From a virus: a stretch of 22,596 nt of DNA. The notes beneath the pieces are model-generated. The model ran no database searches. It worked only from the letters and a program-made list of their open reading frames with translations, and was not told where the DNA came from. This document shows positions 1 to 15,473 of this stretch, in pieces. The DNA lies in the IMG/VR virus record IMGVR_UViG_3300021378_000178, positions 1-22,596 of that record. One strand, 5' to 3'. Every line of letters starts with the position of its first letter. Position 1 is the first letter of the stretch. Position numbers and translations under genes: made by a program.

Positions 1-1
1 G

Positions 2-1473: not shown

Positions 1474-1553
1474 CAATATGGGTGGTTCAGGCATGGTAAG
1501 AATAACATTCGCATAGTAAGGATAAGAAATGGCAACATACGCAAGTTATAAAA
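679..1553 (+). repeat. 26-bp exact direct repeat at the starts of adhesin copies 2 and 3
   Basis: Bases 679-704 and 1528-1553 are identical across both start codons (MATYASYK). With the internal identities these give blocks where homologous exchange between copies could occur. Confidence 0.8.
680..1516 (+). CDS. Cysteine- and glycine-rich tail-fibre adhesin-like protein, copy 2
   Basis: Complete 278-residue paralogue. The start ATG has AAGGAAA at 667-673 as ribosome binding site and opens MATYASYK, the same N-terminus as copy 3. Residues ~1-32 form a short polar head containing DNSITAAKL, a phrase seen in phage fibre and collar proteins. It is followed by YNERGIKCHAC, CCYWTVP, the VVFEIWSGGGGG glycine-rich core (residues ~75-87), GCKSYVNGHNLSNFC, CANCLIC (CxxCxxC), and a C-terminal CCAGG...MVRITFA strand. 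I count 30 Cys (10.8%). No signal peptide or membrane segment is seen, so this is not a secreted host protein by sequence. Twelve bases separate it from copy 1. A role as adhesin or fibre subunit is inferred from the glycine-rich family and the tail context. Confidence 0.8.
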   Translation: MATYASYKTLTADNFQDNSITAAKLGAGAGNKYCVWWVYNERGIKCHACSDAGDCCEQANGKCCYWTVPANTSKVVFEIWSGGGGGAGATCCNNCTHSAGGSGGNYAVKTISTCPGCTYSICAGGTWRCSKSHTCVAGMGCKSYVNGHNLSNFCTVGGCPGWMCNGGAWGPNHTQTCANCLICGIFGADFGIMGSTGVTGGHGGCQCKSADWGMSGSAPFVGKHSAGANAEAWCNCACYVNWPAGGGQTGQSSYCGNWAKCCAGGNMGGSGMVRITFA

Positions 1554-2368
1554 AAGTAGCAAATGACAGTATAGTTAACGGAACAATTACATCCGCTGAT
1601 ATCGCACACGGTAATGGTAACAACATGGGCGTACAATGGATTTACAATGAACGTGGCATGCAATGTCATCAGTGTGCTAGACAATCAGGTTGTTGTCAAC
1701 AAGCAAACGGAAAATGCTGTTACTGGTGTGTACCAGATGGTGTAAGTACAGTAACATTTGAAATTTGGTCAGGCGGCGGCGGAGGCCCAGGACATACATG
1801 TTGTAATTGTTGTTCATTTGCAATTGGCGGCGCAGGAGGCAATTACGGGTCTAAGACTATTGCTACATCTCCAGGATGTCAGTACAGTGTATGTGCTGGT
1901 GGTGCTTGGCCATGTGGTAAAGCACATACTTGTGGTGCAGGTATGGGTTGTAAGAGTTATGTAAACGGACATAATCTAAGTAATTTTTGTACAGTAGGCG
2001 GCTGTGGTGGATGGATGTGTAATGGAGACGCATGGGGTCCAAGACACACTCACTTTGGTTGTGAAAACTGTAATAGATGTGGAATTTTTGGAGCAGATTT
2101 TGGAATGATGGGAACAACAGGATGGGAACCAGGACATGGTTACTGTCACTGTGTGTATCAGTATTCAGGATCAGGACAACCTCCATTAATTGGTAAAATG
2201 ACAGTATCAGTAACTAACGAAGCATGGTGTAACTGCGGTTGTCACATTGAGTGGCCAGCAGGCGGTGGAATGCCAGGCGTTAGTTCATATTGTAATAACT
2301 GGGCTAAGTGCTGTGCAGGTGGATCTGGACAAGGTGGCTCAGGCGTTGTTCGAATAACATTCATGTAA
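1529..2368 (+). CDS. Cysteine- and glycine-rich tail-fibre adhesin-like protein, copy 3
   Basis: Complete 279-residue paralogue of the two genes before it; AAGGAT before the ATG serves as ribosome binding site. It carries the same MATYASYK head, YNERGMQCHQC, CCYWCVP, VTFEIWSGGGGG, GCKSYVNGHNLSNFC and a CxxCxxC (CENCNRC), and ends CCAGGSGQGGSGVVRITFM. I count 30 Cys, nearly all in columns shared with copy 2. The most variable stretch is residues ~195-225 (around YCHCVYQYSGSGQPPLIG), where a receptor-facing loop might lie. Codons for the conserved motifs differ silently between copies, so the protein sequence appears to be maintained by selection. The product is probably a virion fibre or adhesin; its receptor is unknown. 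Confidence 0.8.
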   Translation: MATYASYKKVANDSIVNGTITSADIAHGNGNNMGVQWIYNERGMQCHQCARQSGCCQQANGKCCYWCVPDGVSTVTFEIWSGGGGGPGHTCCNCCSFAIGGAGGNYGSKTIATSPGCQYSVCAGGAWPCGKAHTCGAGMGCKSYVNGHNLSNFCTVGGCGGWMCNGDAWGPRHTHFGCENCNRCGIFGADFGMMGTTGWEPGHGYCHCVYQYSGSGQPPLIGKMTVSVTNEAWCNCGCHIEWPAGGGMPGVSSYCNNWAKCCAGGSGQGGSGVVRITFM

Positions 2369-2370
2369 AT

Positions 2371-2378
2371 GATAAATA
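2371..2378 (+). promoter_or_regulatory. T4-type late promoter motif (GATAAATA)
   Basis: GATAAATA fits the NATAAATA form of the T4 late promoter (T4 consensus TATAAATA). It lies in the 29-base gap after the third adhesin gene, 19 bases before the ATG at 2398, and is followed by AGGAG (2384-2388). That spacing gives a very short leader. The same arrangement recurs before 3306 and 12904. Confidence 0.55.
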
Positions 2379-2397
2379 GTTTTAGGAGCTGAATAAC

Positions 2398-3189
2398 ATG
2401 AGAAAAATTGAAAAAACATTTACTTACCCAATTTGGGACGAGTGGAGAAAAAATAGTTTTGAAAACGGAAGAACCGGCACCTTTACTTATAAAGGCCCTG
2501 AGTTTTTAACGTTTGAAATAGGCAATGACCCTGCAGATACAGACAACTACCAAAAAGAATCTGGTTGGTGTCTATGGGAAAAAATGGATTTAGAACGTCC
2601 AGCCGGCAAAGACATAACAAGAATAACAGTTGATTGTAAAGAAAACCCTTTACTTTGCGAAATCGGTAATGATGATGGTAAAGAAGAAGGTGTATTACTA
2701 AGACGTCAAAGAGAATGGAAAGTTCTTTGGGACGCTCCAGACGGTTATATGGATGTAGAGTACACAGATGAATTAGAACCGCGTGATGTATACGACGAAC
2801 AAAATATCACATATGATTTTGAAACAGAAACATTTAATATTGGGATCCATGATTGGGAAGCTACAGGTGCAAAAATGGACCTAACATGGCAAGATCTTAG
2901 AGATGTTAGAGATTCGGCATTGCACGATACTGACGCTAAAGTTGGACAGACAGACGCTCCTGAAGCTATCCAACAGACTTGGAAAGATTATAGACAAAGA
3001 CTAAGAGATTTACCAGCTTGGGCACAAGCGGCTGGATATGAGCCGTGGCAAGCAGTTATGATGTTTCCAACTGTACCAAAAGATATGCGTGATCCAGACA
3101 CATCAGCAGATCCTGCAGATCCGTATAGAGAAGGTGCATTTGCCGTTGACGTAGAAGTTGCCGCTCAAAAGGTTGCAGGTAAAAAATAA
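2398..3189 (+). CDS. Phage tail assembly chaperone-like / tail fibre assembly protein
   Basis: 263 residues; the start is set by AGGAG at 2384-2388. Residues ~160-235 (TWQDLRDVRDSALHDTDA, then QTWKDYRQRLRDLPAWAQ) match the Phage_tail_APC type of domain, whose hallmarks are LR..RD, a TD pair, and W..YRQ.LRD.P. This domain is found next to tail-fibre genes in many phages, consistent with its place directly after three fibre-like genes. Residues 1-~150 are acidic and beta-rich-looking and I do not recognise them; they could bind a fibre partner. No signal peptide is visible. It probably helps fold or assemble the adhesins just upstream. The domain call is firm at motif level; the partner is inferred. 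An intrinsic terminator follows the stop. Confidence 0.7.
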   Translation: MRKIEKTFTYPIWDEWRKNSFENGRTGTFTYKGPEFLTFEIGNDPADTDNYQKESGWCLWEKMDLERPAGKDITRITVDCKENPLLCEIGNDDGKEEGVLLRRQREWKVLWDAPDGYMDVEYTDELEPRDVYDEQNITYDFETETFNIGIHDWEATGAKMDLTWQDLRDVRDSALHDTDAKVGQTDAPEAIQQTWKDYRQRLRDLPAWAQAAGYEPWQAVMMFPTVPKDMRDPDTSADPADPYREGAFAVDVEVAAQKVAGKK

Positions 3190-3214
3190 ATTTAGCATTA
3201 TAAATTAATAAATT

Positions 3215-3237
3215 AAGGGCCATTAGGCCCTTTTTTT
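3215..3237 (+). terminator. Rho-independent terminator
   Basis: GGGCC (3217-3221), loop ATTA, GGCCC (3226-3230), then seven T (3231-3237). Two A-T pairs (AA at 3215-3216 with TT at 3231-3232) can lengthen the stem. It lies 25 bases after the stop of the tail-assembly gene and closes that transcription unit. No comparable terminator was found elsewhere in the window. Confidence 0.9.
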
Positions 3238-3274
3238 ATGACTACCAGATCAGCGTCATGTAAAGTATCCTACC

Positions 3275-3282
3275 AATAAATA
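3275..3282 (+). promoter_or_regulatory. T4-type late promoter motif (AATAAATA)
   Basis: AATAAATA fits NATAAATA. It lies just after the terminator and 23 bases before the TTG start at 3306, with AGGAGA (3295-3300) between them. Coming straight after a terminator, it is the best candidate promoter for the enzyme cluster that follows. Confidence 0.5.
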
Positions 3283-3305
3283 TTTGTACTATACAGGAGA
3301 AAACA

Positions 3306-4367
3306 TTGGAACGCAAAAAAGCATATTTTATCAACGGTGGAGCAGGCAGAACAGTTGCAAGTATTCCAGCGTTTGAAAAACTCTACGAAACAGATCAAGA
3401 CTTTATTATTGTTTGTGAAGGCGGAATGGACTTTTATAAAGGACATCCACAACTACATGAATTAGCATATGATAATTGGCATAAAAACCTATTTAAAGAT
3501 TACATTAAAGACAGAGATTGTTACTCTCCAGAACCTTATCGGATTTGGGAATATTATAATCAAAAGTGTAGTTTAGCACAAGCATTTGATATTGCAATTA
3601 ATAACAAAGGTATAAGAGATTTACCTGACCCAACTATACATATGAACAAACATGAGCTTGTACAAGGGTATAAAGTTGTTGAAGAAATTAAAGCAGTTAC
3701 AGGCAAAGACAAAGTAGTGGTGTTTCAACCATTTGGTCGTACAGCTGAAAACATGGGCGACTTTGTAATTGATGGTACTAGTAGAAGTTTTCATTTAAAT
3801 GATGTTATACGCATTTGTAAAGACTTACGTGATGATTATGCTGTAATTTTAATGAGCGAATTCCCTGTTGTAGTTGAAGAAAATACTAAAGTTCCTGTAG
3901 CAGTTCCACAAATTCCAGATGTAAGAGTTTGGTCAAGCGTTATTCAAATTGCAGATCATTTTATCGGTTGTGATAGTCTAGGACAACATATGGCAAAAGC
4001 ACTAGGTACAACATGCACAAGTGTTATTGGCAGTACATATCCTATTAATATTTCTTATCCTAATTCTCCTGACTTTGATATTATTGACTTAGGAGAAGGT
4101 AAGCGTAAGTTTAGTCCTATTAGACTTACAATGGAAGATTCAATTGAACGATTTAACGATGAAGTTATGGAGTTAGATGATGAAAGTTTTAAAAAAATTA
4201 TTACAAGTGCTCGCAAGCGTTTGGGGAAACCGAGAAGTTATACCGGAAACTACAAACCGCAACAAGAACAAGGCGAAGTTTGTCCAACCCATGGAGTAGT
4301 ACATGCAGATGGTGCATCACACGGCAATAAACAACAAGCAAAAATCTTAGGTCATACTGGGCAGTAA
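3306..4367 (+). CDS. GT9-like (heptosyltransferase-type) glycosyltransferase
   Basis: 353 residues with a TTG start, supported by AGGAGA at 3295-3300 and the lack of an earlier in-frame ATG. The N-terminus AYFINGGAGRTVASIPAFEKL resembles the first Rossmann half of glycosyltransferase family 9. Residues ~137-147 (VVVFQPFGRTA) fit the inter-domain strand. Residues 220-247 (IGCDSLGQHMAKALGT then SVIGSTYP) match the GT9 donor-site pattern DSG..H.A.ALG.P...LFG...P. GT9 enzymes transfer heptose or similar sugars from nucleotide-sugar donors to lipopolysaccharide core. A GmhB-like phosphatase and HldD in the same window make a heptose donor plausible. The C-terminal ~45 residues lie outside the fold and include CPTHGVVHADGASHG, a possible metal-binding patch. 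The acceptor is unknown. The alternative is a GT-B-like glycosyltransferase of another family. Confidence 0.6.
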   Translation: MERKKAYFINGGAGRTVASIPAFEKLYETDQDFIIVCEGGMDFYKGHPQLHELAYDNWHKNLFKDYIKDRDCYSPEPYRIWEYYNQKCSLAQAFDIAINNKGIRDLPDPTIHMNKHELVQGYKVVEEIKAVTGKDKVVVFQPFGRTAENMGDFVIDGTSRSFHLNDVIRICKDLRDDYAVILMSEFPVVVEENTKVPVAVPQIPDVRVWSSVIQIADHFIGCDSLGQHMAKALGTTCTSVIGSTYPINISYPNSPDFDIIDLGEGKRKFSPIRLTMEDSIERFNDEVMELDDESFKKIITSARKRLGKPRSYTGNYKPQQEQGEVCPTHGVVHADGASHGNKQQAKILGHTGQ

Positions 4368-4368
4368 A

Positions 4369-4971
4369 ATGAGCGATCCTAACTTTACTTCACCTGATAG
4401 TTTTTTAAGTGGTATCACAACTGTAATGGATCCTACTGTAGAAAAAATACAAACACTTGATACATGGGTTGTAGATGATTTATTTTATCCGGGATATAAA
4501 AAGTTTTTAAATTTATTTGATACTTCTAGCGAACGACATGTCGACTATGGTAACGGTACTTTGTATTACAAAAAGGATATGTCTTACCCTACAGATATAG
4601 ATCCAAAAGAAGAGTACTTAGCGTTTATTAAGTTTCAGTTACAAAATTTGCCTATCCGTGTTAAAGATTTTAAAAAAGCATGGGGTGTAAAATATCCACC
4701 AGGTGCATATAGCGGATTACATTCGCATCAACCTGGAAAACAACTAACTAGTGTGTTATTTTTAGACACTCCAAAGCCAAGTGTAGAATATCCTTTAGCA
4801 GGATGTTTAACTACGCTACAGCCAACAGACAGTGAAATTACTTACTTAACACATAAGCCTATTGAAGGTAAGTTGGTAATCTTAGATGGTAAAGTATGGC
4901 ACGGATCTTACCCTACACTAGAAGATAGACATGTATTTGTTGTAGACTTTGAATATGAAAGTGTAATATGA
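4369..4971 (+). CDS. Fe(II)/2-oxoglutarate oxygenase-like protein, paralogue A
   Basis: 200 residues, starting one base after the previous stop with no strong ribosome binding site, so it is probably translationally coupled. The C-terminal half looks like a double-stranded beta helix: YSGLHSHQ (H118, H120), TSVLFLDT, GKLVILDGKVWHG (H178), then R187 before VFVVDF. The spacing fits the phage 2OG-Fe(II) oxygenases that carry HxH rather than HxD, with a distal His and Arg. Such enzymes use Fe(II), O2 and 2-oxoglutarate to hydroxylate a substrate. It is a clear paralogue of the gene at 5540: both share HVDYG, SYP, FKK.W...YP, SGLH.H, GKV.HG.YPTLE and VFVVDF. The sulfotransferase gene lies between them. 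The substrate is unknown. Confidence 0.6.
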   Translation: MSDPNFTSPDSFLSGITTVMDPTVEKIQTLDTWVVDDLFYPGYKKFLNLFDTSSERHVDYGNGTLYYKKDMSYPTDIDPKEEYLAFIKFQLQNLPIRVKDFKKAWGVKYPPGAYSGLHSHQPGKQLTSVLFLDTPKPSVEYPLAGCLTTLQPTDSEITYLTHKPIEGKLVILDGKVWHGSYPTLEDRHVFVVDFEYESVI

Positions 4972-5540
4972 ACCAATATGTATTTAATATCGGGTTTAAT
5001 AGATCAGGAACTACATCGTTAACTAATGCATTAAACATCTTAGGAATTCCTAGTATACACTTTTCTGTAGACGGATCTGGATGGCATAAAAACAACAACA
5101 AAGAGCTAGAAGTCGTTGCAAATATAAACAAAGAGCAAGGGTTAAATTACTTTCATACACTTGATCATATATATCAAGGTTTTAGTGACTTTAACGGAGA
5201 GAAGTACTATAAAGAACTTTATAATCAATATCCTAATAGCAAATTTATACTTACTATACGTGCTCCAGAAGATTGGATTAAAAGTGTAATAACTATGGAA
5301 AGATCGCAAGGAAAATTTCAGCGTGATACTAAACAAGAGCATAACACATTTAAGCGTAAAGTAGATCGTTATTTTAAGAAAAAGAACGAAATACGAGATT
5401 TTTTTAATGATAAACCAAATACATATTTAGAAATGAACATTTGTGACGGTGACGGTTGGAAAGTGCTTTGTAATTTTTTAGGCAGAGACATTCCTAGTTC
5501 GCCATTTCCATATGTAAACAAATCAGAAAGTGTAAAATAA
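4968..5540 (+). CDS. P-loop sulfotransferase family protein
   Basis: 190 residues. The ATG overlaps the previous stop (ATGA). Residues 6-22 (FNIGFNRSGTTSLTNAL) form the 5'-phosphosulfate-binding loop of sulfotransferases. Residues 93-106 (FILTIRAPEDWIKS) form the 3'-phosphate-binding element with R98 and S106. The C-terminal LEMNICDGDGWKVLCNFLG resembles the end of the Sulfotransfer_4-type family. The predicted reaction is transfer of sulfate from PAPS to a hydroxyl or amine of a glycan or small molecule. It is shorter than many eukaryotic members but holds both cofactor motifs, so it looks intact. It sits between two paralogous oxygenases, which suggests sequential hydroxylation and sulfation; that link is inference. 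Confidence 0.75.
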   Translation: MNQYVFNIGFNRSGTTSLTNALNILGIPSIHFSVDGSGWHKNNNKELEVVANINKEQGLNYFHTLDHIYQGFSDFNGEKYYKELYNQYPNSKFILTIRAPEDWIKSVITMERSQGKFQRDTKQEHNTFKRKVDRYFKKKNEIRDFFNDKPNTYLEMNICDGDGWKVLCNFLGRDIPSSPFPYVNKSESVK

Positions 5541-6145
5541 TGGATATAGAAACTTTAGATACTGCATATCAAGGTGATAAAGACTTTTTCTGGTTATGCT
5601 TTAATGGACGTATACCCGACTATTGGATTAGCAAAGACAAGTATCAAGACTATAATAAATTTTTAGAACTATTTGATAATCCGCCTAAGTCGCATGTAGA
5701 TTACGGTGGTGCAATTATACAATATAACGATGATGATTTTTCATATCCGTATAATGTAGACCAACAAGGAATATATTTAGAGTGGATTAAAAAATCTATA
5801 GAAAAGTTTCAATTTAAAAACGTAAAATTTAAGAAATGTTGGTGGCTAACATACCCTGAGAATACTTTCTCAGGATTGCACACACATGAAGATAGAGGAC
5901 AACGCACAATGACATGTGTTATGTTCTTAAACACAATATCAGTAAGCACAGTAACACCATTAAATGGTAAATTAAAAGCAATTACTATGAATCCTGTTAC
6001 AGGTGAACTAGTAAGTGATATGATAAAATGTATAGCAGGCGATGTAGTAGTTATGGACGGTAAAGTTTACCATGGAGTATATCCTACATTAGAAGAAAGA
6101 AAGGTATTTGTAGTTGACTTTACATACGATGTAGAAATTAACTAA
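5540..6145 (+). CDS. Fe(II)/2-oxoglutarate oxygenase-like protein, paralogue B
   Basis: 201 residues. The start overlaps the sulfotransferase stop by one base (TAATG). It has the same plan as the gene at 4369: HVDYGG near residue 52, FKKCWWLTYPENTFSGLHTHE (split here as H114 and H116 in the HTH motif), TCVMFLNT, a longer insertion ~residues 133-165, then GDVVVMDGKVYHG (H178) and R187 before VFVVDF. These fit the iron ligands and the 2-oxoglutarate-binding Arg of a double-stranded-beta-helix oxygenase. The two copies have diverged widely, so they may act on different positions or partners. The unit ends here: a 79-base gap with a stem-loop follows. Confidence 0.6.
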   Translation: MDIETLDTAYQGDKDFFWLCFNGRIPDYWISKDKYQDYNKFLELFDNPPKSHVDYGGAIIQYNDDDFSYPYNVDQQGIYLEWIKKSIEKFQFKNVKFKKCWWLTYPENTFSGLHTHEDRGQRTMTCVMFLNTISVSTVTPLNGKLKAITMNPVTGELVSDMIKCIAGDVVVMDGKVYHGVYPTLEERKVFVVDFTYDVEIN

Positions 6146-6167
6146 TGATAAGGTTCAGTTCTTGTCA

Positions 6168-6184
6168 GCAATCACTGGGATTGC
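6168..6184 (+). promoter_or_regulatory. Stem-loop in the gap before the carbamoyltransferase gene
   Basis: GCAATC (6168-6173), loop ACTGG, GATTGC (6179-6184): a perfect 6-bp stem in the 79-base gap between the oxygenase and carbamoyltransferase genes. No T-run follows, so it is not a standard terminator. It could mark RNA processing or partial termination. An AT-rich stretch with TATATAAAG (around 6197-6205) follows but does not match the late motif. AAGGAAA at 6214-6220 is the ribosome binding site of the next gene. Confidence 0.35.
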
Positions 6185-6224
6185 AAATACATATAGTATA
6201 TAAAGAAACATAAAAGGAAACAAT

Positions 6225-8054
6225 ATGACACAGTGGATTGGAGCAATCACAAGAGGACACAACGGCGGCGCCGTATTATTAAAAGATGGTGAAATTGTAT
6301 TTTCAATCGAAGAAGAACGTCTAACTCGTAAAAAATATGACGGCGGACCACTTGCCTCAATGATTAAATTCCTTGATTATACAGATAAATTAGATTATCT
6401 TGTAGTAGCACATACACAACCATTAGCAGAGTCGAGCAGAATTGACTTTAGCGGTGGTGATATGTATACAGGACTAGCAAGGAAACTAGGATTAATTGAT
6501 AGAAACGATAATGCTTACACAGCAGATGGCCAACACAATCATAGGCAAGTAATTGACCTAAGTCATATACATCATAAATTACATGCGGCATGTGCATTTT
6601 ATCGTTCAGGATTTGAATCAGCAGTAAGTGTTATTGTTGATGGAGCAGGCACATTTATACCAATGAACATTAACATGGGTGTATTTAACGAAGAATATAT
6701 GTCATGGGAATGTGAAAGTATCTTTAATTGTGCATATCCTGATAACTTTAAAACTTTATATAAGCACCAAGGAGGAAACGGACCTTTTCCGGGAACACGT
6801 ATTCCATATATTCCATCAGACCGTGAAGGTGAAGAAGGATTTCACGAACTTGTACTAGATGATAGTGCAGGTATTGTTAAGGCATACGAAGCAGTAACAC
6901 AATATTGTGGATTTCAACCTATTGAAGCAGGTAAAACTATGGGGCTTGCTCCATATGGTAAGAAAAATTTAAATATTCCTCCGATTTATACTGACGGCAA
7001 TGGTGGTAAGTGGCGTACAAGTGATAGAAACATTGTTATTCCTACATATCCAAATGCGGCATTAGTAAATGAAGCAAAATACGAGTATTTAGAAACATCA
7101 CAAGATACGATTAATAGTAATACTGACCTAACTACACAAGAAAATCGTAGAGACTTAGCATATGCAGTACAAGAAGGATCACAACAAGAAGTATTAAACC
7201 TTATTTTTAAAGCAGTTGAAATGTCCGGTAATAAAAACGTAGTACTAAGTGGCGGCTATGCACTTAACTGTGTTGCAAACTACTGGTACCTCGATAAATT
7301 AAACAAAGAAGGCATTAAGTTATACGTTGAACCTGTTAGTAATGATGCAGGTACAGCAATGGGTGCGGCTATGTTAGTATATCATCAAACTACAAAAGAT
7401 AAAACTATACGTCCTTACGCAGAAACAATCTACGAAGGTTTTGAGTATACATATACTAATGAGCAAATTGAAGACACTGCAAACAAGTATGGTGCTACAA
7501 TTACTGACGCTAATAAAGAATTAGTTGTAGAATTAATTAGAAACAAAAATATTGTTACTATGTTTCAAGGTAAAAGTGAAAACGGACCACGTGCATTAGG
7601 TAACAGAAGTATATTGTTTGACCCAACGTTCGAAGACGGCAAGGATTACGTAAACAAAGTAAAGCGTAGAGAGTATTTTAGACCCTTCGCTGGAACAATT
7701 ATGTTAGAGCATGCACATGAATGGTTTGACATGCGTGGATTAGAACAAACACCACATATGATGTATGCAATGGATTGTCAAGAAGGTATTGCAGAAAAGA
7801 TCCCAAGCATTATTCATGTTGATGGCACTTGTAGAATTCAAACTGTAACCAAAGAACAGAATAAACACTACTATGAGCTTATCGAAGAGTTCTATAAACA
7901 AACAAGTGTTCCAATTATTTTTAATACTAGTTTTAATTTAGGTGGTGAACCACTAGTTGAAACTCTAGATGATGCTGTACGTACACTTTATAATAGTGAG
8001 ATGGAATATTGTTACCTACCTGAGTACGGCAAACTAATTGAAATGAAGAACTAA
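6225..8054 (+). CDS. NodU/CmcH-family O-carbamoyltransferase
   Basis: 609 residues, the full length of the family. The N-terminal Kae1-like domain shows GAITRGHNGGAVLL, SIEEERLTRKKY, HIHHKLHAACAF (residues 114-125; H116/H120-type metal ligands) and VDGAG (D139). In the middle are GKTMGLAPYGK and VVLSGGYALNCVANYWYL followed by NDAGTAMGAA. The C-terminal YrdC-like domain has GKSENGPRALGNRSIL (449-464), RREYFRPFAGTIM and FNTSFNLGGEPLVET. Family members make carbamoyl-adenylate from carbamoyl phosphate and ATP, then carbamoylate a hydroxyl on a sugar or antibiotic. NodU acts on Nod factors; TobZ and CmcH act on antibiotics. Neighbouring sulfo-, halogen- and oxygen-transfer enzymes suggest decoration of a common product. 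The acceptor cannot be read from sequence. All key motifs are intact. Confidence 0.93.
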   Translation: MTQWIGAITRGHNGGAVLLKDGEIVFSIEEERLTRKKYDGGPLASMIKFLDYTDKLDYLVVAHTQPLAESSRIDFSGGDMYTGLARKLGLIDRNDNAYTADGQHNHRQVIDLSHIHHKLHAACAFYRSGFESAVSVIVDGAGTFIPMNINMGVFNEEYMSWECESIFNCAYPDNFKTLYKHQGGNGPFPGTRIPYIPSDREGEEGFHELVLDDSAGIVKAYEAVTQYCGFQPIEAGKTMGLAPYGKKNLNIPPIYTDGNGGKWRTSDRNIVIPTYPNAALVNEAKYEYLETSQDTINSNTDLTTQENRRDLAYAVQEGSQQEVLNLIFKAVEMSGNKNVVLSGGYALNCVANYWYLDKLNKEGIKLYVEPVSNDAGTAMGAAMLVYHQTTKDKTIRPYAETIYEGFEYTYTNEQIEDTANKYGATITDANKELVVELIRNKNIVTMFQGKSENGPRALGNRSILFDPTFEDGKDYVNKVKRREYFRPFAGTIMLEHAHEWFDMRGLEQTPHMMYAMDCQEGIAEKIPSIIHVDGTCRIQTVTKEQNKHYYELIEEFYKQTSVPIIFNTSFNLGGEPLVETLDDAVRTLYNSEMEYCYLPEYGKLIEMKN

Positions 8055-8653
8055 TGCTGGTAAACTTATATTCAATTCCAGTATATAAGATAAAACTACC
8101 GGAGCATGAGCAAGTACAACAAGACTTTGCCGATATACTTGATAAAGAAGAGTATTTCAGTAAAGTACCTTCTTGGTACAGTCCTGTAGATACTACATAT
8201 GGTAACCCTGATGCTTCAAACTTACCATTTAAAACATTTATTAGATCAGCAATTACTGGATTGAATGAGTATCTTGAAAACTTTAGTATAGACTTAACAT
8301 TAGACTATAGGATTGAGTGTTGGCTTAACAAGTACAAGCCAGGATCGTATCAAGAAGTACATAACCATGTAGGAGTTGCACAAATTAGTTGTGCTTATAT
8401 GATGCACACACCAAAAGACAGTGGTAACTTTGTATTCTATAACAAAGCCTACGACTTTTTCCATCAATCAGGCCTTCCTGCATTGTCGACACAACCATTT
8501 AGATACAATAACAGAGTAACCCCTCCGTTAGAAGAAGGTGATATTGTATTTTTTCCTAGTAACCTAGAACATTACGTATCTAACAATACTAGCGACCAAG
8601 TACGGTCAACAATTAGTGCTAACTTTGTACTATCGGAGAAACAAGATGATTAA
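8054..8653 (+). CDS. 2OG-Fe(II) oxygenase (Oxy_5-like, HxH type)
   Basis: 199 residues, starting in the TAATG overlap with the carbamoyltransferase stop. ECWLNKYKPGSYQEVHNH leads into H103 and H105; then SCAYMMHTPKDSGNFVFYN, EEGDIVFFPSNLEHYV (H173) and R184 in RSTISANFVL. This closely follows the 2OG-FeII_Oxy_5 family common in marine T4-like phages: W...Y..G.YQ..HNH, S..YY...P..SG, a strand ending in FFPS...H, then R..IS.NF. The predicted reaction is Fe(II)- and 2-oxoglutarate-dependent hydroxylation, substrate unknown. Translational coupling to the carbamoyltransferase suggests a joint product. Confidence 0.75.
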   Translation: MLVNLYSIPVYKIKLPEHEQVQQDFADILDKEEYFSKVPSWYSPVDTTYGNPDASNLPFKTFIRSAITGLNEYLENFSIDLTLDYRIECWLNKYKPGSYQEVHNHVGVAQISCAYMMHTPKDSGNFVFYNKAYDFFHQSGLPALSTQPFRYNNRVTPPLEEGDIVFFPSNLEHYVSNNTSDQVRSTISANFVLSEKQDD

Positions 8654-9365
8654 AAACACAATTAACGAAGAAGAAACATTTGCTGTCAACGAAGACTACG
8701 ACACAAGATTACACAAGTTTGGAAAAGCAGGTGTACATGTATTAGTAGTTGATAACTTTTATAAAAATCCACATTTAGTAAGACAACTTGCTTTAGATAT
8801 TCCGGCATCTGTTAATAGACGTATTAGAGGAGGTAATCCTGCACTACGAATTAATGCATTTTACGAGCTATCAAGTTTAGCCCAACCATTCCATCACTTA
8901 GCATCGGAGTTTTTTCCGGAGATAATGTATCAATACGAACCAGGATATATGGATAGAAGTTTTATGAATGCAACATTTATGATTAATGTCATGCAAACTG
9001 ATAATTTACCACCTCTTGCACCGCATCAAGACAATCGTTCAGGTATGAATCTTGCTAGTACAATTTATTTAAACAATGAAAATGAGTCTGCGGGTGGCAC
9101 AAGTTTTTATGAATTTGGCGGCAAACACTTTTACACCGATGAAGTAGTAAACAATGACTTTAATGTTACTATGGATGTTGAAGGAAAAATTCCAGTAACA
9201 GAATATATTACTGATAGTTCGCATGATTGGGAAATGATTGGGATGATTCCAATGCAGTTTAATAGGATGGTATTATACAATCAGGCAGTATTACATACTG
9301 CATATGTTAAGCCAGACATGTTTGTAGGTGATAACTATAGAATGAATCAGCAGTTTTTTATATAG
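8646..9365 (+). CDS. DUF6445-like 2OG-oxygenase-fold protein
   Basis: 239 residues from the ATG at 8646, chosen over an upstream in-frame start because GGAG (8635-8638) sits correctly before it; it overlaps the previous gene by 8 bases. Near the start, HVLVVDNFYKNPHLVRQLAL matches the entry strand of the DUF6445 family. PHQD (H127, D129), LASTIYLN, AGGTSFYEF, LYNQAVLHTAY (H217) and R232 in YRMNQQFF fit the HxD...H...R set of Fe(II)/2-oxoglutarate oxygenases. DUF6445 genes are known to occur beside flavin halogenases in bacteria, and a halogenase lies one gene downstream here. No function is established for the family. The fold is fairly secure; activity and substrate are unknown. Confidence 0.65.
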   Translation: MIKNTINEEETFAVNEDYDTRLHKFGKAGVHVLVVDNFYKNPHLVRQLALDIPASVNRRIRGGNPALRINAFYELSSLAQPFHHLASEFFPEIMYQYEPGYMDRSFMNATFMINVMQTDNLPPLAPHQDNRSGMNLASTIYLNNENESAGGTSFYEFGGKHFYTDEVVNNDFNVTMDVEGKIPVTEYITDSSHDWEMIGMIPMQFNRMVLYNQAVLHTAYVKPDMFVGDNYRMNQQFFI

Positions 9366-9374
9366 GAGAATAGC

Positions 9375-9956
9375 ATGGATGATAATTTTGATGGAGTAGA
9401 AGTATATGATAACGTATATCCAATTGACTTTTGTAAACAAGTAATCAAAAGATTTGAAGAATTGTCTTCAATGCAGATGACTGCAATACAACAGCAAGGT
9501 ATTGATAGAAATCAAGACGAACGTATATACATGGATTGGGCAAACCACAATAGTCATTACCATGCAGACGAAGATTTATGTAAATTTTTCTTTGAAACCT
9601 TAAACAAAACGTATTTAGAAAAGTATAAAAAGAAATATGAGAGCTTAGGATTATTATTTCAACATACAGCAAAAGGTATGAGTGTTCAAAAAACAAAACC
9701 GCACCAAGGATACCACGCTTGGCATTGCGAAAATGCAGATGTACCAACAAGCACACGGGTGTTAGCATACACATTATATTTAAATGGTGTCGAAGAAGGC
9801 GGCGAAACAGAATTTCTTTACCAAGGACATAAAATTAAACCAGCTCCTGGTAGATTGGCTATCTTTCCTACATCGTTTACGCATCCACATCGAGGCAATC
9901 CTATCTACAAAGGCGTTAAGTATATTATAAGCGGATGGTATACATTAGACCACTAG
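9375..9956 (+). CDS. Prolyl-4-hydroxylase-like 2OG-Fe(II) oxygenase with HxE in place of HxD
   Basis: 193 residues; AGGAG at 9364-9368 sets the start. GYHAWHCEN (H117, E119), RVLAYTLYLN, EEGGETEFLYQG, KPAPGRLAIFPTSFTHPHRG (split: H172 as distal ligand) and GVKYIISGWY (K182) follow the P4H-like 2OG-FeII_Oxy_3 pattern, including the GG.T.F strand and the lysine that binds 2-oxoglutarate. The usual HxD is HxE here, which would keep an acidic iron ligand. The phage 2OG oxygenases of this type act on proteins or metabolites that are largely unknown. It lies between the DUF6445-like gene and the halogenase. Confidence 0.78.
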   Translation: MDDNFDGVEVYDNVYPIDFCKQVIKRFEELSSMQMTAIQQQGIDRNQDERIYMDWANHNSHYHADEDLCKFFFETLNKTYLEKYKKKYESLGLLFQHTAKGMSVQKTKPHQGYHAWHCENADVPTSTRVLAYTLYLNGVEEGGETEFLYQGHKIKPAPGRLAIFPTSFTHPHRGNPIYKGVKYIISGWYTLDH

Positions 9957-9963
9957 GAACAAA

Positions 9964-11421
9964 ATGAAAATAGCAGTAGTAGGTGGTGGCACAGCAGGCT
10001 TTGTGTCAGCGTTAATATTAAAAACAAGTTTTCCAAACTTTAAAATTGATGTAGTTCGATCTACCAAGATTGGAACTATCGGTGTAGGTGAAGGTTCAAC
10101 AGAACATTGGTCTGCCTTTATGGATTTTGTTGGTATTCATACAGGCGAACTTATTAATGAATGTGATGCTAGTTTTAAATCTGGTATTATGTTTGAAGAC
10201 TGGTCTGAAAAACCATACTTACAAAGTGTTCATGAGCCATATGTTGCTGAACAACTAAGTGCACCAATTGCATATGCTAAGTTAATTGGTGAAAAAGTAG
10301 ATGCTAGAGAACTAACAGGTGAATACCTGTGGAATAACGAAACACCATTTAATAAATTTATGGACGAACGTCCTAATGACACTGGCGTAGCACAATATCA
10401 TTTTAATACTGCTAAATTAAATGACTTTCTAACTAAGTTTGCAATAGACAAAGGCATTGATGTTATTGATGATGAAATTATAGACGTAAATGTATTAGAA
10501 GGCAATACAATATCAACTTTACAAGGCGAAAAGCAAGTATATGACTATGACTTCTATATAGATTGCACAGGATTTAGACGTTTACTAATTAATGCAGTTG
10601 GTGCAGAGTGGCAAAGTTATAGTAAGTATCTTAAAATGAAAGAAGCTATTGTATTTCCTACACCCGAAGGAGATGAAATACCAATTTGGACACTTGCAAA
10701 AGCAATGGACGCTGGTTGGATGTTTCGTATACCTGTTCAAGGACGCACAGGTAATGGTTATATATTTGATAGTGATTTTATTACAGCTGAACAAGCACAT
10801 ACTGAAGTTGAAAAATATTTAGGACACGGTGTTGAAGTAGCAAAACATATTAAATTTGATCCAGGTACACTGGACAAAGCATGGATAGGTAATGTGTGTG
10901 CTATCGGACTAAGTCAAAGTTTTGTAGAACCATTAGAAGCAAGCAGTATTGGTAGTAGTATAAATCAAACATTTCTATTAGCACAACGTCTTATAAATTG
11001 TAATCAAGAAACAATTAATAGATACAATATTGAAGTCACTGCTATTATGGATAATATTAGAGACTTTATTGCACTACATTATATTACTGATAGAAGAGAT
11101 ACACCCTTTTGGAAAGCAGTATCAGAAACACCTTTGCCAGATAGTTTAGATAAAAACTTACGTATGTGGAAATATAGAATGCCAATTGCTGACGACATGA
11201 CTACACATACTAAAAAAGTTTTGTTTAACGAATACAATTATGCATTAGTAATGCATGGACTAGGATTATTCGATAATGATAGTATTTTAAAACAATACGA
11301 AACAATTCCACAAGGTGCAAAGGATCATGTTGAACAATCAATACAACATAAATTAGATTTTGATAAAACAAAAACTATTCCGCACAAATTAATGCTTCAA
11401 TTGTTGCGGAGACTAACATGA
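9964..11421 (+). CDS. Flavin-dependent tryptophan-halogenase family protein
   Basis: 485 residues; AGGA at 9955-9958 overlaps the previous stop. VVGGGTAG (5-12) binds FAD and GVGEGST (40-46) is the second family motif. FKSGIMFEDW places K72 where PrnA has its catalytic lysine. GWMFRIP (251-257) corresponds to the WxWxIP motif, with Phe replacing the second Trp. RTGNGYIF and SFVEPLEASSIG follow, with E325 at the position of the catalytic glutamate. These enzymes use reduced FAD, O2 and chloride or bromide to make hypohalous acid and halogenate an electron-rich ring; they need a flavin reductase, and none is seen nearby. The catalytic pair is intact, so activity is plausible. The substrate need not be free tryptophan: the short C-terminal region and phage setting leave indoles, phenols or peptides possible. 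Confidence 0.9.
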   Translation: MKIAVVGGGTAGFVSALILKTSFPNFKIDVVRSTKIGTIGVGEGSTEHWSAFMDFVGIHTGELINECDASFKSGIMFEDWSEKPYLQSVHEPYVAEQLSAPIAYAKLIGEKVDARELTGEYLWNNETPFNKFMDERPNDTGVAQYHFNTAKLNDFLTKFAIDKGIDVIDDEIIDVNVLEGNTISTLQGEKQVYDYDFYIDCTGFRRLLINAVGAEWQSYSKYLKMKEAIVFPTPEGDEIPIWTLAKAMDAGWMFRIPVQGRTGNGYIFDSDFITAEQAHTEVEKYLGHGVEVAKHIKFDPGTLDKAWIGNVCAIGLSQSFVEPLEASSIGSSINQTFLLAQRLINCNQETINRYNIEVTAIMDNIRDFIALHYITDRRDTPFWKAVSETPLPDSLDKNLRMWKYRMPIADDMTTHTKKVLFNEYNYALVMHGLGLFDNDSILKQYETIPQGAKDHVEQSIQHKLDFDKTKTIPHKLMLQLLRRLT

Positions 11422-12284
11422 GAGCGTTTGCCTTTGGCTGTAGCTTAACACAATATTTTTATCCTACATGGGCTGACATCCTAATACATCATTATAAACA
11501 AGAAGGCGCTACAGTTGGAGAGAACTGGGGACGTAGTGGTGCAGGTAATCAATATATTTCAACTCGGCTATGGGAAGCACATACTGAACATAAGTTTACT
11601 AAAGATGATATTATTTTATTACAGTGGTCTAGTTTTTTTAGAGAAGATAGATTCCATATGGGCAAGGGCTGGCACACTCCAGGTAACTTTAGTAAAGCAA
11701 CAGTAGGACAAGATATTCCTTTTGTACTTAACAGTTGGCGTTACGAGTCTATGTGGCAATGGGCTGACATGGCCTGGGCTACAATGCGTGATTGTGCATT
11801 AATAAGCAGTACACATAAAGCATTAGAAAGTTTAGGATGTAAAGTTATATCAACAGGATTTAGAGAACCTACTGAAGGTTGGGACGAACTTAGCAAAGAA
11901 TTTAATACTAAAAATAAGTATTTAGAATTAGAAGATGTAAGAGCTATATTAGAAAAGTATAAAGATGATATTAAAACTACATGTCCACCAATACTTAATG
12001 CACTAGACTTTGGAGTTGACGACGAGTTTTTTAAAACAAGACCAACTAGTATACCTGATCCTAATCCAGAACTTTTACATTTGCATCAGCCTGAAGTACA
12101 TCCACTTACACATGAAGCGGCAGACTTTGTACAAGAACATATATGCAAATTAAATGACGAAACATTAACCTTTGTTGACAAATGGAAGCAAATACTAACA
12201 GCTGAAGAATCAATAAAACTTTACGAATTAGACTGGTTTAACTCTGAAATACATGGCTGGTCAGACGATAGATGGAGACCCTAA
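11418..12284 (+). CDS. SGNH/GDSL-like hydrolase
   Basis: 288 residues, ATGA overlap with the halogenase stop; GGAG at 11408-11411. FAFGCSLTQ (S9 in the GxS block I), NWGRSGAGNQYI (Gly and Asn of the oxyanion region, 36-47), DDIILLQWSSFFRED (63-77) and a C-terminal EVHPLTHEAADFV (226-238; block V-like, H228 or H232) match the SGNH fold order. These enzymes add or remove O-acyl groups on sugars, or hydrolyse esters. No signal peptide is present, so it acts inside the infected cell. In this block it would fit O-acetyl or acyl handling on the modified product. The assignment rests on motifs; the middle ~residues 100-215 look unlike typical lipases. Confidence 0.6.
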   Translation: MRAFAFGCSLTQYFYPTWADILIHHYKQEGATVGENWGRSGAGNQYISTRLWEAHTEHKFTKDDIILLQWSSFFREDRFHMGKGWHTPGNFSKATVGQDIPFVLNSWRYESMWQWADMAWATMRDCALISSTHKALESLGCKVISTGFREPTEGWDELSKEFNTKNKYLELEDVRAILEKYKDDIKTTCPPILNALDFGVDDEFFKTRPTSIPDPNPELLHLHQPEVHPLTHEAADFVQEHICKLNDETLTFVDKWKQILTAEESIKLYELDWFNSEIHGWSDDRWRP

Positions 12285-12285
12285 A

Positions 12286-12849
12286 ATGAGTACCCCAGTA
12301 GTAGGACTAGATAGAGACGGAACAATAAATGTAGATATAGGTACATATGTAACAAAGCCTGAACAGTTTACACCTATTGAAGGCAGTTTAGAAGCAGTTA
12401 AGATGATACGTAACAAAGGTTATGATGTAGTTATTTTGACTAATCAAGCAGGCATAACAAAGGGTATAATGGATCCTGTAGACGTTGACATTGTTAACAA
12501 TTATATGTTAGAACTACTTTGGAATGTAGGTTGTAGGAGTATCAACGGATTGTATTATAGCACATCTAACTTAAAAGAAGACGTATATGCTAAACCTAAT
12601 ACAGGTATGTTTAAGCGTGCCGCGGCAGAAATTGGCGTTGATTGGAAGAATGGTGTGTATGTAGGAGATAAAATTAGCGACTTAAAAGCCGCTGTAAAAG
12701 CCAAAGCAAAGCCTATATTAGTACGTACAGGGCATGGCGCTGAAACAGCTAAGAAGTTAAATACATTTGCTAACAAAGACCTTAAAAAACAAACAGAAAT
12801 ATTTGATAATCTAAATCAATTTGCTCATAGCCTAGTAGATTTAACATAA
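12286..12849 (+). CDS. HAD-family phosphatase, D-glycero-D-manno-heptose-1,7-bisphosphatase (GmhB)-like
   Basis: 187 residues from ATG 12286, preferred over an in-frame ATG at 12253 because GGAG (12274-12277) sits 8 bases before it. GLDRDGTIN (D9 nucleophile, D11), VVILTNQAGI (T52, N53), KPNTGMF (K103) and VYVGDKISDLKAA (D128, D132) are the four HAD motifs in the HAD-IIIA arrangement of GmhB and histidinol-phosphatase. GmhB removes the 7-phosphate of heptose bisphosphate on the way to ADP-heptose. HldD, the epimerase of that pathway, lies near the right edge of the window. The cysteine zinc loop usual in GmhB is missing here (YYSTSNLKEDVYAKP), so its substrate could differ. Last gene of the enzyme block. 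Confidence 0.7.
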   Translation: MSTPVVGLDRDGTINVDIGTYVTKPEQFTPIEGSLEAVKMIRNKGYDVVILTNQAGITKGIMDPVDVDIVNNYMLELLWNVGCRSINGLYYSTSNLKEDVYAKPNTGMFKRAAAEIGVDWKNGVYVGDKISDLKAAVKAKAKPILVRTGHGAETAKKLNTFANKDLKKQTEIFDNLNQFAHSLVDLT

Positions 12850-12877
12850 ATTGTACTGTTACATATCTTTGTAAAAC

Positions 12878-12885
12878 GATAAATA
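12878..12885 (+). promoter_or_regulatory. T4-type late promoter motif (GATAAATA)
   Basis: GATAAATA in the 54-base gap, 18 bases before the ATG at 12904, with GGAG (12892-12895) between. It is identical to the motif at 2371. It marks the likely start of the structural operon 12904-21413. Confidence 0.55.
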
Positions 12886-12903
12886 CAATATGGAGCATGA
12901 ACA

Positions 12904-13416
12904 ATGAATAAACTTCTGACAAATCTTTTCAGTAAAGGTGCAAATAACACCATTCATCTGCCAGACAGATCGAGTTTTAGCTATAGAGGTAGCTGGATTG
13001 GGGTGCAATATAATACTGTTGTAGACTCATTTCATTTAGGTGAATACAGTAGTGCAGTGTATCAAATTACAGTAGAATTTGATTCAAACGAAAAAGAGAT
13101 TATGCAATTATCAGTAGTTGCTAGACCAGATAGAGCTGTTGCAAATATATTCGGACGTTCAAGTATTAACCAAGAATTAGTAAATTTATCTGTCACAGTT
13201 GATGCAAGCATAGTAAAAATTAACGCTAGTCCAACGTCAAATATTTACGCTGGTGCGAAGTTAATCTTCCATGCAACATATGCAAAAACAATTCATCAGC
13301 TTACTCCTCCTGCGATAGTCGCAGATGTATCCAGTGTAGAGGAATCTGGGGTAAATACTTTTGATGCAACAACTACGTATTTCGATAATACAAACATAAC
13401 ATTTGATAAGGTGTAA
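12904..13416 (+). CDS. Putative virion structural protein
   Basis: 170 residues. The chosen ATG follows GGAG at 12892-12895; an ATG at 12897 stops after four codons. The sequence is beta-rich: WIGVQYNTVVDSFHLGEYSSAVYQITVEF, VVARPDRAVANIFGRS, then LSVTVDASIVKINASP and GAKLIFHATYAKTI, in a pattern I associate with marine T4-like phage structural proteins but cannot name. A Thr/Asp-rich C-terminus (~residues 138-170) looks flexible. It heads a late operon with three clear tail proteins, so a baseplate or fibre-attachment role is likely. No enzyme motif is seen. Confidence 0.55.
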   Translation: MNKLLTNLFSKGANNTIHLPDRSSFSYRGSWIGVQYNTVVDSFHLGEYSSAVYQITVEFDSNEKEIMQLSVVARPDRAVANIFGRSSINQELVNLSVTVDASIVKINASPTSNIYAGAKLIFHATYAKTIHQLTPPAIVADVSSVEESGVNTFDATTTYFDNTNITFDKV

Positions 13417-13419
13417 GGA

Positions 13420-14898
13420 ATGGCAAAATCAACAATTAACTTAGGTACAGCCGCAAACGACGGTACTGGTGATAATCTTAGAGCAGGTGCTACTAAGGTT
13501 AATGCTAACGTCGACGAGCTGTATAACGCTTTAGGCGACGGAACAAATATTAAAGACATCGTCAACTCAAACTTGGAACTTGATATTCCAAACGATGATA
13601 ACAAAATTAACAAAGTAGCATTTCATGCCGCAACATTAAACCAAATGAACGCAATTAGCACAAGCACATATCACGGTGCAATGCTACATGTTCATGAAGG
13701 TGGTTCAGTATATGTTGCACACGCAGGTGCATGGCACAAAATGCTTTTAGATGCAAGTGCAGGAGCCATTACAAATTACACAGATCCTTTAAAGTCAGTT
13801 GCATACGTAGGAAACTTAAACAGTTTATCAGATGTTGATACTGTATCACAAGCACCACAAGCTGGTAACGTTCTTAAATGGGACGGAGGCAAGTGGGCAC
13901 CTGGAGTTGACGTATCATCAGGCGGAGCGGCAGTTGATGCTGGAACACTTGACGGATTTGATAGTTCATACTTTACAAACTATAATAACTTAAACAACAA
14001 GCCAACCATTCCTAGCTCGTTGACTGATTTAAGTATTGTAGATGGATCAAGTGGACAAGTATTAGCGGCAAATGGCAACGGAACATTTGGATTTATTACA
14101 CCAGCGGCAAGTGGTTTACAGAACATTTATCAAACAGTTGATGCTGACACAGGAACAACAACTGCAAACTCAACAACAGATACATTAACACTTGCAGGTG
14201 GTACAAACATTACAACTAGTATTGTTGGAGACACTGTAACAATTAACTACAGTGGTGATGCATTAAGTGGTGAAGCTAACCAGAACGCATTCAGTAACGT
14301 ACAAGCAGATACTGGACTAGCAGAAGCTGATAGTAAAACTGATACACTAACTATTGCAGGTGGTACAAACATTACTACATCAGTAACAGGAGACACTGTT
14401 ACTATTAATGGTACAGTTCCAACATTTGCAAGTTTATCTGATACAGATTTAACAGGTATAACTACAGGAAGTGTACTAGTATACAACGGAACTAATTGGG
14501 TACGCAGTCCACAGACATTTGATCAAACTGCATATCCTGCAATGACAATGTTAGAAGTAACAGCAGATAGTAATAACGGATACAAGTTTAGCCAATATGG
14601 TAATACAGAAGATCCTACAATCTATGCATTAGCTGGAGCAACTATTGCATTTAAAATTAATAGTGGAGCAAACCATCCATTCCAAATTGAAACAAGTGGT
14701 GGATCAGCATATGATAACGGACTTGTTCATGTTGCATTAGATGGCACACAAACAACAGGATCATCTGCACAAGGCAAAACAAGTGGAACATTATATTGGC
14801 AAGTTCCTGCAAATATTAGTGGTAACTATGCTTATGTTTGTACGGTACACAGTTCAATGGCAGGTACTATTGTAGTTAAACAGTTAAGTGCAATATAA
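13420..14898 (+). CDS. Tail fibre / baseplate structural protein with C-terminal cupredoxin-like domain
   Basis: 492 residues; AAGGTG (13408-13413) before the ATG. The N-terminus INLGTAANDGTGDNLRAGA and KVNANVDELYNALGDGT is the recurrent N-terminal module of marine phage fibre and baseplate proteins. Residues 170-200 have DAGTLDGFDSSYF, and LSD.D...GNVLKW-type strands occur twice (~136-162 and ~339-364). Residues 241-276 and 296-330 are an internal duplicate (ADTG...TDTL...AGGTNITTS). Residues ~375-492 end in a domain with NHPFQI (H419) and YVCTVHSSMAG (C474, H477, M480), the ligand order of type-1 copper proteins. No signal peptide: it is a virion protein, not a secreted electron carrier. 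Whether copper is bound is not known. Confidence 0.7.
   Translation: MAKSTINLGTAANDGTGDNLRAGATKVNANVDELYNALGDGTNIKDIVNSNLELDIPNDDNKINKVAFHAATLNQMNAISTSTYHGAMLHVHEGGSVYVAHAGAWHKMLLDASAGAITNYTDPLKSVAYVGNLNSLSDVDTVSQAPQAGNVLKWDGGKWAPGVDVSSGGAAVDAGTLDGFDSSYFTNYNNLNNKPTIPSSLTDLSIVDGSSGQVLAANGNGTFGFITPAASGLQNIYQTVDADTGTTTANSTTDTLTLAGGTNITTSIVGDTVTINYSGDALSGEANQNAFSNVQADTGLAEADSKTDTLTIAGGTNITTSVTGDTVTINGTVPTFASLSDTDLTGITTGSVLVYNGTNWVRSPQTFDQTAYPAMTMLEVTADSNNGYKFSQYGNTEDPTIYALAGATIAFKINSGANHPFQIETSGGSAYDNGLVHVALDGTQTTGSSAQGKTSGTLYWQVPANISGNYAYVCTVHSSMAGTIVVKQLSAI
14140..14409 (+). repeat. Intragenic tandem duplicate in the fibre-like protein
   Basis: Two copies, 14140-14247 and 14305-14409, encode residues 241-276 and 296-330. 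They share ADTG, TDTLT.AGGTNITTS and GDTVTIN in order. The DNA is close to identical over the GGTGGTACAAACATTAC core but differs silently elsewhere. This is probably a structural bead of a fibre shaft. Confidence 0.75.
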
Positions 14899-14912
14899 GG
14901 AAATAGAAATAA

Positions 14913-15470: not shown

Positions 15471-15473
15471 AGA

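Follow-up and report, generated by a model that had tools for sequence, protein, structure and literature searches.

A fibre-linked island of putative heptose, carbamoyltransferase, oxygenase and halogenase genes in a viral tail module

Results

Layout of the island and its gene families

We analysed the 22,596-base virus record IMGVR_UViG_3300021378_000178 (the window), in which an island of eleven genes for putative tailoring enzymes lies between phage fibre genes and later structural genes, all on the plus strand. A first-pass annotation of this DNA had placed the eleven same-strand open reading frames (ORFs) at 3306-12849, and these coordinates were right. It had also described starts that overlap the preceding stops. 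When the start of the last gene is taken as 12286, the likely position judging by start context rather than 12253, five of the ten junctions do overlap, by 1-8 bases, and the other five are gaps: a single base at two, 7-9 bases at two more and 79 bases at one. The alternative start at 12253 would turn the last junction into a 32-base overlap.

The proteins of the window were assigned to families with Pfam, PHROGs and NCBIfam, by sequence matches in the PDB and by a Foldseek search with a predicted model. The first gene, which starts with TTG, encodes a GT9-like protein (3306-4367; PHROG 8954) and is followed by two variable slots and a rare one: OxyA, a 2-oxoglutarate (2OG) oxygenase-like protein (4369-4971; PF13759, E=4e-4, weak; PHROG 81, E=3e-9), a sulfotransferase (4968-5540) and OxyB, also 2OG oxygenase-like (5540-6145; Pfam 5e-3, weak; PHROG 81, E=8e-8). 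The sulfotransferase call was borne out by a Sulfotransfer_4 match (PF17784, E=7.5e-31). Likewise, the NodU-type O-carbamoyltransferase (6225-8054; PHROG 1601, 1e-166) carries both Carbam_trans domains above cut-off (PF16861, 3e-57; PF02543, 6e-25), and its PDB matches are 7xb6, GdmN and TobZ; the substrates of GdmN and TobZ are small molecules. Next come OxyC (8054-8653; 2OG-FeII_Oxy_5, PF13759, 1.5e-15), a DUF6445 oxygenase-like protein (8646-9365; PF20043, 1.6e-21) and OxyE (9375-9956; 2OG-FeII_Oxy_3, PF13640, 3e-13). Of the five oxygenase-like proteins proposed earlier, OxyC and OxyE are clear and the DUF6445 protein has an HxD...H pattern, whereas OxyA and OxyB are weak in Pfam, though both match PHROG 81. 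The eleven genes end with a flavin-dependent tryptophan halogenase family protein (9964-11421), an SGNH-like protein (11418-12284) and a HAD phosphatase (12286-12849). The SGNH-like protein, earlier named a hydrolase, is conserved in relatives and owes its name to a motif only; none of Pfam, PHROGs and NCBIfam gave a match to it.

DUF6445 proteins, both in the window and in S-SSM7 (L001; SSSM7_119 and SSSM7_134), bear the PHROG/RefSeq label 'minor coat protein' although they are 2OG oxygenase-like. The label may be misleading, or these proteins may travel with the virion. The sulfotransferase gene was seen in the window and in two near-identical contigs and is absent from a contig whose GT9 is 99% identical (L005), apparently a recent gain or loss.

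The halogenase matches PF04820 (Trp_halogenase, 3e-98, 330 bits), and Lys72 and Glu325 are invariant in 113 of 113 aligned rows, the window included, in line with its first description as a flavin halogenase. Its PDB matches are Trp halogenases together with VirX1 (6qgm, E=3.3e-41). At the position of the WxWxIP motif expected of tryptophan halogenases, the window protein reads WMFRIP; across the 113 rows the third position is F in 65, W in 46 and L in 2.

Upstream of the island, the plus strand encodes three Cys/Trp/Gly-rich fibre proteins: the first at 2-667 (cut by the window start; 26 Cys and 9 Trp in 221 amino acids; about 40% identity to the fibres of phages S-SSM7 and Sf-FS3), the second at 680-1516 (PHROG 4205, E=7.5e-35; 30 Cys and 11 Trp in 278 amino acids) and the third at 1529-2368 (PHROG 4205, E=1.3e-33; alignment of relatives). 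Together they contain 26-30 Cys and 9-11 Trp per 221-279 residues, more than 12 Cys are invariant across 22 aligned relatives, in which a stretch SYVNGxNLSNFC is also conserved, and identity to the S-SSM7 and Sf-FS3 fibres is 35-42%. In S-SSM7 the Gly/Cys-rich fibre proteins are SSSM7_114-116. Fibre relatives in phages P-SSM2 and S-CAM3 came to light with a profile that did not yet contain them (E 1.3e-19 to 2.5e-9) and that was then extended to include them. The fibre genes are followed by a gene for a fibre assembly chaperone-like protein at 2398-3189 (Phage_tail_APC, PF16778, E=7e-7; tail-fibre-assembly PHROGs).

A terminator-like hairpin computed at 3215-3232 (plus strand) marks the boundary between the fibre block and the enzyme block and recurs in the spacers of relatives. 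A G+C-rich hairpin with a T run, varying in sequence, was found in 20 of 38 distinct chaperone-GT9 spacers and in 3 of 35 controls; the controls were other spacers of 50-250 bases, and the test strings alone included 40 bases of the next gene. All 20 hairpins begin within the first 29 bases of their spacers, which are distinct in sequence yet related. Most of the 18 spacers that have no hairpin are short.

Beyond the island, the structural block continues on the plus strand with a 170-amino-acid protein (12904-13416; an ORF of conserved position), a gp9/gp10-like baseplate/fibre connector (13420-14898; PHROG 677, 3e-95) and a large virion structural protein of 1979 amino acids (15474-21413; PHROG 5838, 7e-258). 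The island had been called late-expressed. The motif TATAAATA, which we take to be the T4-type late promoter, would be expected 3.0 times in the window but occurs once, at 15320, beyond the island; it lends that claim no support. Sigma-70-like sites in positions 1-16000 showed no excess either (58, against 63.3 in shuffles). The place of the island within the structural module nonetheless suggests late use.

Genes of the ADP-heptose pathway

The sequence of the GT9-like protein only hints at its family (TIGR02201, E=0.002; 17 bits where the cut-off is 170; no Pfam match). An AlphaFold2 model was built from 13 sequences (predicted local distance difference test, pLDDT, 77.9), and Foldseek placed it in the GT-B fold of GT9, with matches to the GT9 enzyme 3tov (1.5e-10), to lipopolysaccharide (LPS) heptosyltransferase II 1psw (4e-8), to TibC 4rap (1e-7), which heptosylates proteins, and to WaaC, at 11-14% identity. 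The predicted fold supports the GT9 assignment and is heptosyltransferase-like. The protein named as a HAD phosphatase is indeed HAD, and its narrower identity is that of a GmhB-like heptose bisphosphate phosphatase (NF006506, 1.2e-39, 135.7 bits, below the cut-off of 178; PDB 4pnh, 6e-22).

The set, which had been closed at 12849, extends further. On the minus strand lie a gene for a WbuC-like cupin of the heptose cassette (21410-21850; TIGR04366, 1.9e-5, 24.5 bits, below the cut-off of 42; PHROG 7851) and one for an HldD-like ADP-heptose 6-epimerase, cut by the window end (21837-22595; TIGR02197, 1.4e-60, below cut-off; PDB 1eq2, 3e-39). The final 3,688 bases of the window are matched at 99.95% identity by a contig that continues with a complete HldD (276 amino acids), then a bifunctional HldE of 382 amino acids (NF008454, E=4.9e-82) and then a second halogenase. 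Given GmhB, HldD, HldE and the heptosyltransferase fold, the scaffold sugar is probably ADP-heptose, a theme that the first-pass annotation missed. The lineage of the window appears to hold most of the ADP-heptose pathway together with a heptosyltransferase, a carbamoyltransferase, oxygenases and halogenases, to which this strain adds a sulfotransferase.

GmhA, annotated in P-SSM2 and S-CAM3, was not found in relatives of the window: SIS_2 matched in 0 of 8 records, which may be fragments, and the P-SSM2 GmhA in 0 of 18, a search with no positive control. We disfavour the cupin as a GmhA substitute, as P-SSM2 and S-CAM3 encode both. The cupin adjoins heptose genes in the window, P-SSM2, S-CAM3, S-SSM7 and Sf-FS3. 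PHROG 7851 is labelled 'cysteine dioxygenase' (P-SSM2 PSSM2_312), but its member in the window is, by a weak match, WbuC-like.

Conservation of the island and its linkage to fibre genes

Four scans of viral contigs, each keeping up to 80 best loci, gave 220 loci that merged with the window into 119 stretches, some of them near-identical. In agreement with the earlier description of a tailoring cassette within a tail module, the genes are conserved as a set: the exact core order was kept in 64 of the 73 stretches that span carbamoyltransferase to GmhB, the window included. Among the other nine, three lack only a recognised OxyE and six differ. The slots between GT9 and the carbamoyltransferase vary: of 66 stretches, 52 have OxyA, 31 have OxyB and 3, counting the window, have the sulfotransferase.

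GT9 profiles run over all loci yielded 317 GT9 ORFs, and those of at least 230 amino acids formed 27 clusters at 70% identity. The enzymes proved to be tied to virion genes across lineages. A fibre gene, a chaperone gene or both lie at most seven genes upstream of GT9 in 22 of the 27 clusters (fibre in 21, chaperone in 21), and the carbamoyltransferase lies at most five genes downstream in 23 of 26. A second scan, seeded with the fibres, recovered 71 new loci, 51 of them with 5 kb of downstream sequence; among these best-scoring relatives, taken from a list of limited length and not a random sample, GT9 followed in 51 of 51 and the carbamoyltransferase in 50 of 51. Five GT9 clusters received no fibre or chaperone call. 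One of them (L227) has a tail-fibre gene four genes upstream of GT9, and another is the divergent contig L067, described below. The remaining three are the phage records inspected among 32 with lone GT9 relatives: two Vibrio phages (L253, L255) in which GT9 stands among tail genes with no carbamoyltransferase, and an Aeromonas phage (L254) in which GT9 comes directly after a gene whose product weakly matches tail fibres, and the sheath gene follows two genes later. The near-constant unit therefore consists of the fibres, their chaperone, GT9 and the carbamoyltransferase.

The genes further downstream are exchanged between phages and comprise halogenases, oxygenases, GmhA or GmhB, HldE, HldD and the cupin; other variants are radical SAM and FkbM methyltransferase genes. 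In a 110-kb relative (L198:13400-20082), the carbamoyltransferase is followed by radical SAM, more 2OG oxygenases and an amidinotransferase-like protein recognised by eye only, and the halogenase, SGNH-like and GmhB genes are placed further on (L248).

The first-pass annotation had named single, scattered occurrence of these genes in related phages as a finding that would speak against it. This is partly what we observed, as relatives of the halogenase and the carbamoyltransferase also sit apart from the island in named phages. In 20 of the 119 stretches a halogenase occurs without GT9 or carbamoyltransferase; 7 of these look like islands cut at a contig end, and the 13 others, some also cut, have more distant halogenases (405-567 bits). 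Three halogenases were present in 4 of 6 records of long relatives. The divergent phage contig L067 has five halogenase-family hits, GT9 and a carbamoyltransferase, with no adjacent fibre genes.

Occurrence on two unlike phage backbones

GT9 and the carbamoyltransferase are 60% and 67% identical to their S-SSM7 counterparts. In contrast, when L247, a close relative of the window, was compared with S-SSM7, Sf-FS3 or S-CAM3, its neck, terminator and sheath proteins reached only 21-41% identity, in most cases in alignments of partial length, and its sheath matched Atu_ph07 and PA5oct best. The simplest explanation is that transfer brought the fibres and enzymes, perhaps with further parts of the distal tail, to unlike phages. 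In a GT9 tree of 31 rows, 16 of them with known backbone, S-SSM7, Sf-FS3 and L374 grouped together, S-CAM3 stood apart on a flagged long branch and L227 was on the longest branch. Repeated swapping of the module between the two backbones was not supported: one sharing event suffices, and the tree has too few labelled rows for events to be counted. A cyanophage origin of the window's own lineage was not supported, given psbA in 0 of 10 long relatives (of unknown completeness) and the nearest sheaths named above.

Tryptophan content of the fibres

Fibre Trp content was 0.035 at 26 loci with a halogenase and 0.028 at 15 loci without one (p=3e-5), absence of the halogenase being judged from about 6 kb downstream of the fibres. 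After correction for relatedness (42 loci), p was 0.03-0.06 and Trp ranked third of 20 residues. When L198 and P-SSM2, both of which have a halogenase elsewhere, were relabelled, p became 0.009-0.020 and the rank 1 to 3. As a sign of Trp halogenation the excess is no more than suggestive, and it left our assessment of the island's function unchanged.

Discussion

Proposed function and alternative explanations

We give about an even chance to the reading that the island is a fibre-linked modification cassette acting on the Cys/Trp/Gly-rich fibre. Gene content and order, homology, the predicted fold class and fibre linkage lead us to infer a scheme of enzyme activities with heptose as the sugar, the fibre as acceptor and a benefit to the phage. 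HldE, GmhB and HldD would convert heptose 7-phosphate into ADP-L-glycero-D-manno-heptose; the host may supply GmhA, the enzyme of the first step. GT9 would then transfer heptose to fibre side chains in the cytoplasm, as TibC does for its adhesin, and the carbamoyltransferase, oxygenases, halogenases and, here, the sulfotransferase could decorate the sugar or fibre residues. A fibre decorated in this way might differ in receptor binding, stability or recognition. The target had been left open as 'host surface or virion'; the near-constant unit, its presence on two unlike backbones, the lone GT9 genes among tail genes and a structural relative, TibC, that acts on protein make us lean towards the virion fibre.

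Several results weigh against fibre modification. Linkage to fibre genes would be expected equally of receptor-altering enzymes or from inheritance within each lineage, and in L067 GT9 and the carbamoyltransferase have no fibres beside them. The 1979-amino-acid structural protein is 38% identical to that of S-CAM3 over 1,699 amino acids, so the block shared between backbones exceeds fibres and enzymes. GmhB, HldD and HldE are the best family in each case, yet fall below the NCBIfam cut-offs. Leu and Ile also respond in the fibre composition test, and structure prediction for the fibre (pLDDT 50.9) was too poor for a structure search. Finally, because a terminator-like hairpin separates fibres from enzymes, the two do not form one simple transcript; in phages with a spacer hairpin this suggests that the enzymes are their own transcription unit, contrary to strict co-transcription with the fibres.

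We favour fibre modification over remodelling of the host surface, a possible but doubtful explanation in which a decorated carbamoyl-heptose on LPS or another envelope glycan hides the receptor of the phage, giving superinfection exclusion or less loss of progeny on debris. The chemistry of the Pseudomonas LPS core involves ADP-heptose, heptosyltransferases and a heptose carbamoyltransferase (WapO; PMC8005017), and surface alteration was proposed earlier for the LPS genes of P-SSM2, an idea repeated by Clokie 2010 (PMC2984593). Fibre-gene linkage is expected here too if enzyme and fibre concern one receptor. The genes expected for O-antigen conversion, however, were not recognised: searches of Pfam, PHROGs and NCBIfam brought up no flippase, polymerase or membrane glycosyltransferase for the island, and a crude hydropathy scan gave no clear membrane span, the maximum of 1.7 belonging to the nucleotide-binding start of the halogenase. 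According to PMC4390846, cyanobacterial LPS lacks heptose and 3-deoxy-D-manno-octulosonic acid, so that the native LPS offers cyanophages with the cassette no heptose core on which to build; this is relevant because S-SSM7, P-SSM2 and S-CAM3 infect cyanobacteria. The near-constant neighbours, moreover, are the fibre and its chaperone, and lone GT9 relatives lie inside blocks of tail genes.

It is rather improbable that the island is cargo, that is, that the fibre-neck region is a hyperplastic site of T4-like genomes which collects unrelated enzymes with no single product, perhaps as filler DNA. The strong variation of the downstream genes, the rarity of the sulfotransferase and the presence of halogenases elsewhere would fit such a hot spot, and Sullivan 2010 raised the possibility of 'stuffer DNA'. 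This is difficult to reconcile with the core order kept across stretches, the invariant halogenase Lys and Glu, the pathway logic of GmhB, HldE, HldD and GT9, and a fibre-GT9-carbamoyltransferase unit near-constant in divergent phages. It is highly improbable that the enzymes make a diffusible small molecule, halogenated and carbamoylated, with which to compete or to manipulate the host: the family set does overlap natural-product clusters (GdmN, TobZ, Trp halogenases), but the window yielded no recognisable core synthase, precursor peptide or exporter and the linkage to fibre genes is steady.

A bolder form of fibre modification, which we consider unlikely, is a designer glycan: a phage heptosyltransferase would place phage-made heptose on the fibres, other enzymes would add carbamoyl, hydroxyl and sulfate groups to it, and up to three halogenases would act on fibre tryptophans. 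Fibre and enzymes would travel between lineages as one exchangeable receptor-binding cassette, and the decorating set would be swapped like O-antigen genes.

Relation to known systems

In phage-encoded virion glycosylation, for example in mycobacteriophages, a glycosyltransferase lies beside structural genes and is thought to modify virion proteins; the island has, in addition, the greater part of a sugar-nucleotide pathway and other enzymes for decoration. Its GT9 resembles TibC and the LPS heptosyltransferases WaaC and heptosyltransferase II in predicted fold and in linkage to ADP-heptose genes, but the structural-alignment identity given above is low and its gene lies near phage fibres, not autotransporter or LPS core genes. 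The carbamoylated heptose of the Pseudomonas LPS core (PMC8005017) offers a likeness of gene set, in that a carbamoyltransferase occurs together with heptose genes; the island differs in being in a phage, with no recognised LPS core genes and with extra halogenases and oxygenases.

A similar arrangement is that of the LPS clusters of cyanophages P-SSM2 and S-SSM7 (T4-GC 302-308) and of S-CAM3, in which a GT9-like gene, a carbamoyltransferase, HldE halves, GmhA, a cupin and HldD lie between tail-fibre and later structural genes. The lineage of the window differs by its backbone, GmhB, a fused HldE and the oxygenase-halogenase block. Sullivan 2010 reported large LPS clusters for P-SSM2 and S-SSM7, with seven co-occurring genes including T4-GC 304, 305, 307 and 308, and did not decide between a functional and a filler role. 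We found no publication joining these enzymes to fibre modification in a literature search that was incomplete for subscription journals. The parts are known; the arrangement and its reading are new.

If the reading is correct, 2OG oxygenases, tryptophan halogenases, carbamoyltransferases and heptose genes, long unexplained 'auxiliary' genes, would share one job in these phages, modification of the receptor-binding fibre, in place of the scattered metabolic roles assigned to such genes in marine phages. Virion biology would gain protein heptosylation and halogenation, and the host range and fibre chemistry of ocean viruses would become testable by mass spectrometry on cultured cyanophages (S-SSM7, P-SSM2, S-CAM3).

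VirX1 (PDB 6qgm), a solved viral flavin halogenase presumably from a cyanophage, belongs to the same Trp_halogenase family as the island enzyme. It is more distant from the latter than many bacterial Trp halogenases among the matches listed, and the island halogenase differs in lying within a fibre-linked cassette. According to a 2023 review, 20 of 153 cyanophages carry tryptophan halogenase genes. In P-SSM2 (L228:8638-12715), a halogenase and a 2OG oxygenase lie beside L-shaped tail fibre assembly annotations, away from the heptose cluster. Some relatives encode a small extra protein directly upstream of the halogenase (L132:13686-14081; L120:13141-13506), the start of which is hydrophobic and, by eye, signal-like; the L132 member has no Pfam match.

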